Assembly: GCF_900215485.1 (NCBI RefSeq)
Contig: NZ_OCMZ01000001.1
Span: forward strand, 558,001 to 622,000
DNA length: 64,000 nucleotides
From: Nitrosovibrio sp. Nv4
GTDB lineage: Bacteria > Pseudomonadota > Gammaproteobacteria > Burkholderiales > Nitrosomonadaceae
Direction of reading: 5' to 3'
Part shown: positions 23,946 to 41,484 of the stretch, one piece after another
Layout: each line of letters begins with the position of its first letter
How positions within the stretch are numbered: position 1 is the first letter of the stretch
The notes under the pieces: model-generated
Seen by the model: the letters and a program-made list of their open reading frames with translations, nothing else
The model's database searches: none
What the model was told of the DNA's origin: nothing
Translations under genes and position numbers: made by a program

Positions 23946-27461
<3,516 letters not shown>

Positions 27462-35870: not shown

Positions 35871-36384
35871 ACCTGTTCTCCCATGAAAATTGCTGAGGTA
35901 GTTTCCGATCAGAGATTCTCGCCAGTCCCGCGATCAGGCTGGAAGCGTAGCCGGAAGCGGTCTCGCTGCGAACGATGTGCGAACAGGGCCACGAAAACAA
36001 GCACTAATTGTCCCGACACGGGAACATATGATTTCGCTTTTCGTTTATCCCATCCGTGCGTTAAGGCACATTAGAGGCAAGTGTGTAACGTAATAGGGAC
36101 AGACTGAGCTGGCCCCGGTTTTCCGGACGCTTTAATTTGGAACCTTGCTGTTTACTGGATCCGCAACCGGTTACTAACCGCATCCTCTCCGGTTTAATGG
36201 GGGCAACTCCAGCATGAAAGTATCGTTCTATCCAGTCGGGTGCCGCTTGGGACCGCTTGTGATGTTCGACTGCGATCTGGAACCGGCGCTCGCGTTGTAC
36301 CTCTATCCAGGTCTGGCTGGCGATCGACCACACGATGCTTGCCGCAAACGATGCCTGCCTGGTTGAGGCGGGACGCTTGGCTGA
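35871..36384. other. Intergenic, upstream of phage remnant
   Basis: About 510 bp. Frames are open on both strands but none has a ribosome-binding site or recognisable family motif. It may include decayed sequence from the phage gene that follows. Confidence 0.4.
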
Positions 36385-37245
<861 letters not shown>

Positions 37246-37378
37246 TAAAGTAGCCCATGGAATATCCCTGCTAGCTAGGGGTACCAAGGTACAGTGGTGG
37301 TTGCTATTGAACTCGGTAAGATGGAGACTTTGGCTAAAACATATCAGAGTCATGCTGTTACTACTTGATGAGATTGCA

Positions 37379-37565
37379 ATGAATGCCAAATTTAGAATCG
37401 GTAACATGGTACGGCCGAAATGTGACCCAGAAATGGCGGTCACAGACGTTTTGAAAAAAACATGTTCGTACGGCTTGGTTCGAGTTCGTTCGCTGGGTTC
37501 ACTGGAAGCAAATAAGGAGATGGACAATTTTCATACGACGCTTTCATTATCGATGAGGAAGAAAC
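37379..37565 (+). pseudogene. DUF2158/YodC-like small gene, frameshifted
   Basis: The 5' part encodes MNAKFRIGNMVRPKCDPEMA, similar to the xFxxGDxVxLKSGGPxM start of YodC-like proteins. In another frame the 3' part reads FTGSK-stop-GDGQFSYDAF then IIDEEE, similar to the WFxGxK ... GxF end of the same family. Together they suggest one small gene broken by at least one indel and a stop. Similarity is judged by eye and is modest. Confidence 0.35.
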
Positions 37566-37578
37566 AAAATCTTAAGTC

Positions 37579-37815
37579 ATGGTAATCTCTCCCGAAGATG
37601 TGGCGCAGTGGATGCACTATGAACTTCATAAGAACAAATACTTTTTCAAGACCCAATCGTATATGACATTAACATTAGATTTGGGGACGAGTTTATATAC
37701 AGTAATAGAAGCGGAAACCTTGCTATTGATCTTAAAGTTCTCGCCGCAGCAGGAGAGAAAGTTCGGACCCATGGTTTCGGCCTGGATCGCGAAGATGCTT
37801 GAAAAAGGCGGCTAG
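37579..37815 (+). pseudogene. DUF6953-like small gene, frameshifted
   Basis: The start MVISPEDVAQWMHYELHKNK matches the opening of a family of about 90-100 aa (tentatively DUF6953) often seen in gene cassettes and islands. After KYFF the family sequence continues in a different frame (DPIVYDINIRFGDEFIYSN, then RSGNLAIDLKVLAA), so one base is missing near 37641. The frame later ends in TGA at about 37795. The gene is broken; the original function is unknown. Confidence 0.5.
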
Positions 37816-37954
37816 CGGCACTTGGAACATTGAACTTGGAGCTGCCGGCACGCTTCTCGCTACCGTCATCGATCGCTACTTCGGCCTGGGTGAATGAAGT
37901 CTGACTGATCGGCTCGCTGCCAGAATCCATTAACTACGACTCATGAGATAGCCC

Positions 37955-39064
37955 ATGCAGCTTAAATCTTTCGAAGTAATCGGCCTTCTCGGACGAGAGG
38001 CTTCATTTCGCCTCGACTTTAACGAGGACATCAACATCATTACAGGCCGTAACGGCTCTGGTAAGACGAGCGTACTCAAGTTGCTTTGGTACATTATGAG
38101 CGGCAATATACTTCTGGCACTAAAAGAAGTTAATTTCAAGAAGGCAACGCTCGAAACTACAGAGTACGAGTGCGCCATATACAGACTGTCGCCATACACC
38201 TGCCGAATAGATTGGCGTGACGCCGACGGACAGAGAACCTTCGAGGACATGAGAGACGAAGACGGGGATGTTGTGGTAAACGCCGAGGATCAGGCAAATA
38301 AACTTCTATCCGGTACCGGCTCATCTGTCTTTCTGCCGACGTTCCGTAGAATAGAAGGAGGTTTCACGCTAAGCGAAAGAAGCTCGAATATGCTTTCTCG
38401 GGCGAAGGGAGATATTGAAGAGTCGCTTGTAGCACTTTCTAAGCGGCTTACCAATGACAACCATGTTTTTGTTGCAGCGCTTAGCACTGTAGACGTGGTA
38501 TCGCTTCTCGTACGCCAGTATACGGACCTGTCGGAGGAGTACAACCAACTCCAGCAGAAAACCTCGCAGGAGATTATCTCAAAAATTAAGGAATTTAAAC
38601 AAGACAACTCCGATGTCAACCAACTCAAGGCTGCAAACGGCATGCTCGATGAGATTCGAATTCAGATCGAGGGGATGGAGGACTCGCGCGAGGCAATAAT
38701 GCGACCTTTAGAGGCTGTACGAAACTTGGCCATGAAGCTCTTTCGTCATTCTGGCATAAAGCTGGGAAAAAACCTGAGCTTTGGTGACGCTGCCAATGCT
38801 ATCAACTCAGATGCATTGTCTGCGGGAGAGAAGCAGATGTTAAGTTTTATTGCATACAATGCGTTCTACAGTGACGCAGTCGTGCTTATTGACGAGCCAG
38901 AGCTCAGTCTTCACGTTGATTGGCAAAGGCAACTATTTCCGATTCTACTAGGACAGCAAGCATCAAATCAGTTCCTAATCGCCACACATTCGCCATTTAT
39001 CTACAGCAAGTATCCAGACAAAGAAATTCAGATCGATTCTGACCGGGGCGACATCGGGCAATGA
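37955..39064 (+). CDS. AAA/ABC-type ATPase, AriA-like (PARIS defence)
   Basis: 369-residue ATPase of the AAA_15/OLD-like ABC class. Walker A is ITGRNGSGKTS (residues 29-39), a helical coiled-coil region spans about 190-270, the signature motif is LSAGEKQML (about 288-296), Walker B is VVLIDEPELSLH (about 309-320) and the switch His is in IATHSP (about 343). There is no nuclease domain in the protein itself. It overlaps the next gene by 4 nt (ATGA). An ATPase of this kind followed by a DUF4435 TOPRIM protein is the composition of PARIS (AriA+AriB). The base composition is A/T-richer than neighbouring housekeeping genes, as expected for acquired DNA. Both genes are intact. Confidence 0.85.
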   Translation: MQLKSFEVIGLLGREASFRLDFNEDINIITGRNGSGKTSVLKLLWYIMSGNILLALKEVNFKKATLETTEYECAIYRLSPYTCRIDWRDADGQRTFEDMRDEDGDVVVNAEDQANKLLSGTGSSVFLPTFRRIEGGFTLSERSSNMLSRAKGDIEESLVALSKRLTNDNHVFVAALSTVDVVSLLVRQYTDLSEEYNQLQQKTSQEIISKIKEFKQDNSDVNQLKAANGMLDEIRIQIEGMEDSREAIMRPLEAVRNLAMKLFRHSGIKLGKNLSFGDAANAINSDALSAGEKQMLSFIAYNAFYSDAVVLIDEPELSLHVDWQRQLFPILLGQQASNQFLIATHSPFIYSKYPDKEIQIDSDRGDIGQ

Positions 39065-39819
39065 GCGTGCCAATGTACTCGCCTGCGAAGGTTGAACTGG
39101 ACGTTGAAGAGATCATCGCACTTCTGAAGAAGACGTCGCTCCCAACGGTTATTGTTGAAGGATCCGACGATATGATCGTTTATCGCAGGTTCGAAATTCG
39201 TCTTGCCCATTTGGGAATTTCTATCTTTCCTGTCTGCGGGCGTAAGAAGGTACTCGATATTTTTCTTAGAAAGTCTGAGATACCGGCGGACGTGAAGTTG
39301 GTCTTTGTGGCTGATCAAGATACTTGGGTAAATACTGGTGTCCCTGCCCAGTATCAAAGTTCGCAAATGGTGCTAACTACCGGATACTCCATCGAGAATG
39401 ATGTATTTATGGATGGAAACCTAGTAAGCCTTCTAAAGGGGCAGGAGGTTGCGAAGTTTTCCTCGGAGTTGGAAAGCTTTGTCGAGTGGTACTCACTTGC
39501 ACTTTCCAGACATCTGAATGGTTCGAATCATCTTATTTCGCTTCATCCAGATCACGTACTAAATCCTGTTCAGCGGCCCGCGCTACTTGCGCTATGCGCG
39601 GGAGAGCAATATCCAGATGCACTGCGTCAACAAATGTTGGTGGATTATCAGAGACTCTTGCGTGGGAAGTCTCTCATTGCACTTCTGGTTCGGAATACGA
39701 ACTATAAGGGTCGGCAACCTCATCACTCCGATAGAGCGCTCCTTGAGATGGTTGCTGTTCGGCCGGGTCCTTTGCTGCAACTTGTTTCTAGCCAAGTGGA
39801 GGCGGCGATCACAAATTGA
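39061..39819 (+). CDS. DUF4435 TOPRIM-type protein, AriB-like (PARIS defence)
   Basis: 252-residue protein with a DUF4435 domain, a TOPRIM-like nuclease fold. Acidic residues expected for metal binding are visible: E33 in VIVEGSDDMIVYRR, D85 and D87 in VFVADQDTW, and E112 in GYSIENDVF. The C-terminal half is helical and unassigned. Co-translated with the ATPase through ATGA overlap. In studied PARIS systems AriB is held by AriA and released as an RNase acting on host tRNA when a phage blocks restriction; that role is inferred here from family and pairing only. Confidence 0.82.
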   Translation: MSVPMYSPAKVELDVEEIIALLKKTSLPTVIVEGSDDMIVYRRFEIRLAHLGISIFPVCGRKKVLDIFLRKSEIPADVKLVFVADQDTWVNTGVPAQYQSSQMVLTTGYSIENDVFMDGNLVSLLKGQEVAKFSSELESFVEWYSLALSRHLNGSNHLISLHPDHVLNPVQRPALLALCAGEQYPDALRQQMLVDYQRLLRGKSLIALLVRNTNYKGRQPHHSDRALLEMVAVRPGPLLQLVSSQVEAAITN

Positions 39820-40360
39820 CCGTGACCCACAATGCCATCCGTCTGCCCGGTCGAGTTTAGATACTATTTCCTCTTGCCTTTCTAAATTTGCAAAAAACTC
39901 ATAGGTTATTTCTGGCAGTCTAGGGTATGTTTGGCCGAAGCTGATGCGATCCTTTTTAAGGTGGAAATATGAGGCTTTAAATCCTCGTGTTTGAAATTGA
40001 ATATTTTTTACCTGCCCCTCACACACCTATTAATAATTTCGGGAATAATCGCGGAGTTAGTGGGTACCTATCGAGTTGATTTGTGGGCACGGCTCCAGAT
40101 GGGTAACAGCGGGAAAGCTAGCGCAGTGGATAGGGGTAGAGAATACCCAGGTTCGAATTGACCCCCTTCCCCCATTTGGTTAGGTATCCCTACTCTTCGT
40201 GTCTGCCATTGCAAAAGAATTTGTTGGCTATCTCCAAAAAAGCTATATAGGAAAGGCGAAAAAACAGGAAATGGCGCGTTATTAGTATGTTCACAACCTA
40301 CTATAAGGCTACTATCAAAAGTAAACAGGTACTTACATTATTGTAAGTACCTGTTTTACA
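39820..40360. other. Intergenic after defence pair, tRNA-like debris
   Basis: About 540 bp with no supported gene. Around 40110-40175 the plus strand has pieces that recall a tRNA (AGCGCAGTGGATAGGGG, GGTTCGAATTGACC, CCCCCA), but no cloverleaf closes. A perfect 15-bp inverted repeat lies near its end. Confidence 0.4.
40323..40356. terminator. Perfect 15-bp inverted repeat hairpin
   Basis: AAACAGGTACTTACA and its exact complement are separated by only TTAT. TTTT follows on the plus strand side. On the minus strand it comes just after a tRNA-Lys-like fragment, as a tRNA gene terminator would. It could also serve as terminator for the defence pair on the plus strand. Confidence 0.6.
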
Positions 40361-40610: not shown

Positions 40611-40686
<76 letters not shown>

Positions 40687-41010: not shown

Positions 41011-41484
41011 ATGAAAAGCAATGTAACGCGAAGAGAACGCATCTTGATTTTGCATGGTCCAAACCTGAATCTATTGGGAACCAGGGAACCAGAATTCTAT
41101 GGAAGCGCGACGTTAAAGGAAATTAACGGAAGTTTGTCTACTTTGGCGGATAATAATGGAATTGGGCTTGTTCACTTTCAAAGTAACGCAGAGGCGGAAT
41201 TGATAGACCGGGTCCAGCAGGCCGGCGGCGAGGGGATCAGCTTTATTATCATCAATCCCGCGGCTTTTACCCATACCAGCATCGCCCTACGTGATGCGTT
41301 GGCATCGACCAGGATCCCCTTTATCGAAGTTCATCTTTCCAATATCTTCGCTCGCGAGCCTTTCCGGAGGAAATCCTATTTTTCCGATTTGGCTGTGGGT
41401 GTCATCAGCGGCCTTGGCGCAACTGGATACGAGCTGGCGCTGAAATATGCGCTGTCAGCCCTATTGGAAGAGGATCAAAGTTAG
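41011..41484 (+). CDS. aroQ: Type II 3-dehydroquinate dehydratase
   Basis: Third enzyme of the shikimate pathway, converting 3-dehydroquinate to 3-dehydroshikimate. The 157-aa protein has the type II motifs: [18 protein letters not shown] with the catalytic Tyr, [30 protein letters not shown] and [14 protein letters not shown] with the catalytic His. It stands before accB and accC, an arrangement shared by many Proteobacteria. Confidence 0.97.

Follow-up and report, generated by a model that had tools for sequence, protein, structure and literature searches.

An ATPase and Toprim gene pair in a variable island

We analyzed a 64,000-nucleotide stretch of the Nitrosovibrio sp. Nv4 genome (hereafter the window), in which an ATPase gene is followed immediately by a gene for a Toprim protein (Table 1). 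A first-pass annotation of the sequence had proposed an intact two-gene ATPase and TOPRIM unit at 37955-39819 with an ATGA overlap between the genes; we recovered both open reading frames, intact and at the coordinates it had given, and the overlap is present. The ATPase carries the motifs GRNGSGKT (residues 31-38), LSAGEKQ (288-294) and IDEPE (312-316) as well as H345, and scores 71.8 bits against AAA_21 and 68.0 bits against AAA_15 in Pfam, both above the cut-off. No nuclease family is among the nine Pfam families listed for it, in agreement with its earlier description as an AAA_15/OLD-type ATPase with all motifs and no nuclease domain. The four acidic residues of the Toprim protein are likewise at the positions reported. 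The assignment of this protein to DUF4435 TOPRIM was right in part. It scores 17.5 bits against DUF4435 (Pfam PF14491), below the 27-bit cut-off, and 13.3 bits against OLD-like_TOPRIM (Pfam), and DUF4435, searched against the complete genome, gave zero matches at E<=0.001. A TOPRIM fold is predicted, the model matching AriB (see below), but the relation to DUF4435 is a distant one.

A promoter scan found 6 promoters against a mean of 5.3 in shuffled sequences, and the shuffles were not exceeded. Between the pair and the tRNA gene to its right, the terminator scan lists an inverted repeat of 15 pairs around a 4-base loop (window 40323-40356), possibly a terminator or else a site of recombination.

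Table 1. The gene pair and neighbouring features, in window coordinates.
Feature	Position	Strand	Remarks
AriA-like ABC/OLD-type ATPase, 369 aa	37955..39064	+	Putative sensor and holder; intact ORF
AriB-like Toprim protein, 252 aa	39061..39819	+	Predicted RNase effector; acidic E33, D85, D87, E112
ATGA stop/start overlap of both genes	39061..39064	+	Probable translational coupling
Broken DUF6953-like gene, two pieces in different frames	37579..37802	+	E 0.069 and 1.2e-5
Phage GPA-type replication protein remnant	36240..36845	+	PF05840, 5.3e-22
tRNA-Thr (CGU), right edge of variable island	40611..40686	-	ARAGORN

The genes just upstream of the pair are broken, as had been noticed before. The pieces of the DUF6953-like gene lie in two frames and, searched separately, both fall below the cut-off, and the Phage_GPA remnant is a 201-aa ORF covering only positions 208-306 of the 321 in the profile. 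These pieces are island debris and no part of the system formed by the pair. The region had also been called tRNA-flanked, which applies to one side: a tRNA-Thr(CGU) gene lies to the right, but it is the only tRNA of the window and the left side has none. No repeat of the tRNA region longer than 12 bases marks the left island edge, and therefore we claim no attachment site. The identification of the host as an ammonia oxidiser follows from three full-length, equal-scoring copies of AMO (PF02461) in the genome, one of them at window 25383-26087, and agrees with the first-pass annotation. The G+C content is 44-48% over 37001-40000 (47.4% in ariA and 48.0% in ariB) against 53.9% for the window. 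This is a weak sign of foreign origin, because the ORF to the right of the tRNA (41011-41484) has a G+C content of 48.7% too.

The site was compared in five congeners, from 22 other genomes of the genus that were searched. The flanks to the left of about 33.7-34.7 kb and to the right of the tRNA are conserved in the five, the tRNA-Thr is present in all five stretches, and the sequence between the flanks varies. The inserts measure about 1.2 kb in G020 and 0.4 kb in G014, while those of G006, G021 and G012 reach 7 to 9 kb. That of G020 contains a 76-column match to window 36378-36451. The G021 insert (L079 3309-10476) encodes an integrase, a metallophosphoesterase and an AAA_15 ATPase whose match to OLD-like Toprim stays, at 20.1 bits, under the 23.2 cut-off; the G006 insert (L078 4506-9637) encodes an AAA_23 ATPase and a DNA methylase, and the G012 insert a PLD-like protein and a TPR protein. 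Three of the ten ORFs scanned from these three long inserts had no match at E<=0.001. The pair sits in a variable island; of the three long congener inserts scanned, two carry defence-like cargo, and the tRNA-Thr site is possibly a defence hotspot of the genus.

Similarity to PARIS and related systems

The composition of the pair had been likened to that of PARIS (AriA and AriB), and the profile search suggested with that proposal favors it. AriA is the best of 164 PADLOC families for the ATPase (5.7e-28), followed by PtuA (5.6e-22), and the GajA profile also matches, more weakly than AriA. For the Toprim protein, AriB is the sole PADLOC match at E<=1 (1.1e-5). The ATPase search against PDB sequences returned AriA (8ux9, 1.8e-19) and then retron PtuA (6.8e-11); with a four-sequence ATPase profile the values are 1.1e-26 for AriA and 2.9e-12 for retron PtuA, the next family. 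The Toprim protein found nothing meaningful among PDB sequences (best E 0.99), and a four-member AriB-like alignment found nothing at E<=1, so that AriB was reached in the PDB by fold search only. NCBIfam alone ranks another family first: retron PtuA leads for the ATPase with 64.5 bits against a cut-off of 500, no AriA model is among the 25 matches listed, and the Toprim protein has no match.

The AlphaFold2 models of the AriB-like and AriA-like proteins have mean pLDDT values of 95.0 (alignment of 31 rows, the window protein and its relatives) and 85.4 (30 rows), respectively. As single chains, they were searched with Foldseek against 350,542 PDB chains. The AriB-like model matched only two chains at E<=0.001, 8ux9_A (1.1e-5) and 8v46_D (5.8e-5), both of them AriB, with a probability of 1.00, query-normalised TM-scores of 0.47 and 0.50 and an rmsd of about 10 Å; a TOPRIM fold of the second protein is thus predicted, as had been expected. 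For the AriA-like model, ranks 1-15 are all chains of PARIS entries (3.3e-18 and weaker, TM 0.52-0.63), followed by retron PtuA chains from 1.1e-12. The moderate TM-scores suggest that the proteins are divergent rather than close relatives of the PARIS proteins. On the evidence of profiles and predicted folds, the pair looks like a compact, distant PARIS-like system that extends a known defence type and is not a new type.

Like E. coli PARIS (AriA and AriB; PDB 8ux9, 8v45-8v49), the pair consists of two proteins, an ABC ATPase and a Toprim protein, and E314 of the window ATPase aligns with AriA E393, the residue altered in entry 8v49. Both proteins are shorter than the studied ones, as the first-pass annotation had remarked: the ATPase has 369 aa against 464 in the E. 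coli AriA chain (95 residues fewer), and the Toprim protein is 252 aa long where the solved AriB chain has 306. About 70 of the missing ATPase residues belong to the part that follows the Walker A region and precedes the long helices (profile 55-182 versus AriA chain 57-253). The studied AriB is described in PMC12409363 as a two-metal tRNase that is inactive as E26A. Window E33 would correspond to this E26 (E. coli B185), an equivalence drawn through E25 of a Pseudoalteromonas protein. In a published model, as presented in that article, R236 of E. coli AriB contacts the tRNA D-loop; to name window R201 as its equivalent is a guess.

The ATPase domains of Septu/retron PtuA, Gabija GajA and OLD are related to the window ATPase. 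The partner of PtuA is an HNH nuclease (PtuB), and GajA and OLD carry their ATPase and Toprim domains in a single chain. Unlike Gabija and OLD, the window has ATPase and Toprim on two separate ORFs, and unlike Septu and retron PtuA, its coupled gene matches AriB only (PADLOC, E<=1) and not the HNH nuclease PtuB. The combination of an ATPase with a Toprim domain in OLD and GajA is also mentioned in PMC12409363 and PMC9122126.

The 2022 rule for PARIS, as given in PMC9122126, asks for at least 32 bits to AAA_15 or at least 27 bits to AAA_21, plus at least 27 bits to DUF4435. The two window genes are adjacent, as those of PARIS are, and the ATPase is above its threshold, but the Toprim protein fails at 17.5 versus 27 bits. 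This rule would therefore miss the pair, and we speak of a PARIS-like divergent lineage, not of PARIS. Among the 31 members of the family, DUF4435 is matched by 22 and OLD-like_TOPRIM by 24 at E<=1, and the PADLOC AriB model, with its sensitivity judged by E-value, does better, matching 29 at E<=0.01. As judged by these profile matches, a census that relies on DUF4435 would overlook part of the compact lineage, which is visible to PADLOC models. Counts of PARIS made with the DUF4435 threshold are therefore probably too low.

Relatives, residue conservation and trees

With a single AriB sequence as the query, no relatives were found in the genome-contig or viral-contig collections or among 50,697 phage records, and two were found among 72,556 plasmid records. 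The relative on a Lichenicola plasmid shares 38% (AriB) and 52% (AriA) identity with the window pair, and the Acinetobacter relative, on a 4.09-Mb record, 31% and 34%. The Acinetobacter record (NZ_CP104448.1, L003) is labelled as a plasmid in PLSDB and is probably a mislabelled chromosome. The Nitrosovibrio genome is the sole carrier among 101 related genomes and one of two among 398 genomes of the phylum. In the GTDB collection, a four-protein AriB-like profile picked out 34 relatives from 181 pattern matches; in viral contigs, a 31-member AriB-like profile yielded 12 relatives among 21 pattern matches and an AriA profile 20 viral loci among 40 pattern matches. The compact PARIS-like lineage spans at least four phyla (Pseudomonadota, Bacteroidota, Cyanobacteriota and Chlorobiota, by record titles and tree labels) plus viral contigs. 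The ATPase rows of the Pseudomonas poae locus L011 and the viral contig L091 are identical, so the L011 copy probably lies in a predicted prophage.

An AriA-like ORF, partial or broken in a few cases, lies directly upstream of the AriB-like gene in 33 of the 34 genome loci, and in all 12 viral contigs found with the 31-member profile. The exception, L018, begins at a contig edge. L020 retains the ATPase tail only, also at a contig edge, and a gene is fragmented in L008, L023 and L034. At L008 (1548-6901, Xanthomonas hortorum) each of the two genes is broken up into pieces that lie apart, a pattern that insertions could produce. Across 36 loci (the window, two loci of the plasmid collection and 33 genome loci) the genes are at most 35 bases apart in 35 and share a 4-base overlap in 12, the overlaps being approximate because starts were set as the longest ORF. 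The AriA and AriB trees agree (28 pairs, r 0.74, none of 2000 permutations as high), as is also expected from joint inheritance alone. Among 147 of the 156 neighbouring ORFs, at 31 of the 34 loci, a PADLOC scan found no family with more than two members at 1e-10, and the same 147 ORFs gave four integrase matches at 1e-5. The enrichment of defence islands around the relatives is weak, hence it was not used as evidence.

We aligned the AriB-like protein of the window with 30 of its 34 relatives, excluding L008, L018, L026 and L038 as partial or distant. The residues invariant in all 31 proteins include E33, G34, D37, D85, D87, G108, Y109, E112, N113 and G202, and the invariance of E33, D85, D87 and E112 indicates that these acidic residues are not there by chance. 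In the AriA-like alignment (the window and 29 of the 34 relatives, excluding L008, L018, L020, L023 and L034), N33, G34, K37, T38, S289, G291, E292, D313, E314 and H345 are invariant in all 30 proteins. The Walker B glutamate E314 is also found in each of ten longer AriA-like proteins. Similarly, the Toprim E and DxD/E of the compact pair are kept in the longer PARIS-like pairs: E33 and D85 are present in all ten longer AriB-like proteins, and the D87 position is D in eight and E in two. The position of E112 is E in eight of them and N in two, and the pairs with N (Klebsiella and E. coli DS26-1) may not be PARIS. Directly after the conserved G202, 30 of the 31 compact proteins have K203, versus H in eight of the ten longer proteins.

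The median length of the compact AriB-like proteins is 252 aa versus 272-346 aa in the ten longer pairs. A short ATPase is not unique to the compact lineage, as two of the ten longer-pair ATPases have 336 and 372 aa. The AriB-like protein of Escherichia phage vB_EcoM-813R9 (Peduoviridae) is the closest of the ten longer ones to the compact profile (1.8e-12, set size 20000); the pair of this phage has the same acidic motifs as the compact pair, its proteins are 419 and 283 aa long, and it lies apart from the compact lineage in the AriA tree. The window ATPase has a pI of 4.96 and a net charge of -13, and nine of the ten longer AriA-like proteins also have a pI below 6.2. These values lend no support to an ATPase that is electropositive overall, and as the longer AriA-like proteins are similar, this decides nothing.

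The idea of a divergent subtype, raised in the first-pass annotation, gains from the phylogeny, more from one gene than from the other. In the AriA tree, a branch with SH-aLRT 100 sets 42 compact proteins apart, and in the AriB tree one with a support of 56 does so for 43; the program that made these two trees warned of several long branches among the longer pairs that meet. FastTree support for the compact split is 0.34 (AriA) and 0.87 (AriB). The test of monophyly is biased, because compact queries served to gather the compact members, whereas the longer pairs, ten in all, came from a single E. coli AriA query. The AriA tree supports a separate compact lineage, and the AriB tree does so weakly. 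PMC9122126 describes the PARIS of E. coli O42 as a distant homologue of B185 PARIS, and the compact lineage might include or resemble this O42 type.

Proposed mechanism and alternative explanations

In E. coli PARIS, the ATPase holds the Toprim RNase until a phage protein frees it, whereupon RNA is cleaved and growth stops (PMC11455837). By analogy, we consider it likely that the pair is a compact, divergent PARIS-like abortive-infection system in which a Toprim RNase is kept in check by the ATPase and set free by a phage protein. An oligomer of the AriA-like ATPase would bind and silence the AriB-like Toprim protein; an early phage protein would bind the ATPase and free the Toprim protein, which would then dimerise and, through a two-metal site formed by E33, D85 and D87, cut host RNA, most likely tRNAs. 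The cleavage would stop translation before the phage matures and arrest growth. The oligomer, which for AriA is a hexamer that sequesters AriB, the release, the dimer and tRNA cleavage are proposed because the studied PARIS works in this way.

The first-pass annotation noted that PARIS senses phage anti-restriction proteins; such a trigger, Ocr for instance, should not be taken for granted in the present pair. HSDR_N has no match in the host genome and is matched in 9 of 14 control genomes. In a host with no HSDR_N match, an anti-restriction (anti-type-I) trigger is less self-evident. According to PMC9122126, a type I system is not required for PARIS, and for this reason the missing HSDR_N match neither supports nor excludes such a trigger. 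The neighbouring tRNA-Thr(CGU) was considered as a cleavage target and given no weight, being the conserved edge of the site.

The matches of the ATPase to PtuA and GajA profiles and to PtuA structures, the first rank of PtuA in NCBIfam and the similarity of most family members to OLD-like_TOPRIM could also point to a different ATPase and Toprim system of the OLD/Gabija/Septu/retron superfamily, in which the ATPase would activate a Toprim DNase that attacks phage DNA and would hold back no RNase. We regard this as unlikely, as the PtuA and GajA matches are weaker than those to AriA in both PADLOC and the PDB, and the Toprim protein is a separate protein with a predicted AriB-like fold and a PADLOC match to AriB alone. 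Part of the nearby ORFs were scanned, and those outside the pair match GPA, DUF6953 and SDR.

Another reading takes the setting of the pair at face value: with broken genes adjoining it, a promoter scan no better than shuffles and fragmented genes in L008, L023 and L034, the pair would be an unused relic in a dying island, heading for decay. Both ORFs are full length and coupled and retain the invariant residues of the family, which makes this reading quite improbable. Even less probable in our view is an addiction (toxin-antitoxin) pair that maintains a plasmid or island, with defence as a side effect. In formal terms, an ATPase that holds a toxic nuclease in check is an antitoxin with its toxin, a review classes PARIS in this way (PMC11455837), and the Lichenicola relative is plasmid-borne, with two annotated toxin-antitoxin pairs close by. 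However, loss of either gene of E. coli B185 PARIS is non-toxic, as stated in PMC9122126, and the congeners carry other defence-like cargo at the site of the pair.

Going beyond the PARIS-like abortive-infection system preferred here, the compact lineage may tentatively be viewed as a functionally distinct PARIS branch, a possibility to which we give less than even weight. The shortened ATPase would respond to phage proteins of another class than the acidic DNA mimics that counter restriction. The Toprim protein, with RGK in place of RGH next to a probable tRNA-contacting arginine, would cut different RNAs. If true, the PARIS scaffold would carry a second pairing of sensor and target, one that a census built on DUF4435 would see only in part. 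Knowing the trigger and target of the compact version would split the general traits of PARIS from those specific to E. coli.

The literature search covered titles and abstract openings, with two 2024 Nature papers on PARIS outside it; within this scope, none of the papers listed describes such a compact PARIS lineage or centres on PARIS in nitrifiers or ammonia oxidisers. For nitrifying bacteria, the analysis adds a candidate defence pair, along with a variable site at tRNA-Thr that holds defence-like genes. Another congener (G002, L041 198-2292) has a different ATPase frame, identified by eye, beside a distant DUF4435-like protein (22.2 bits, under the cut-off), and this is possibly another PARIS relative in the genus.
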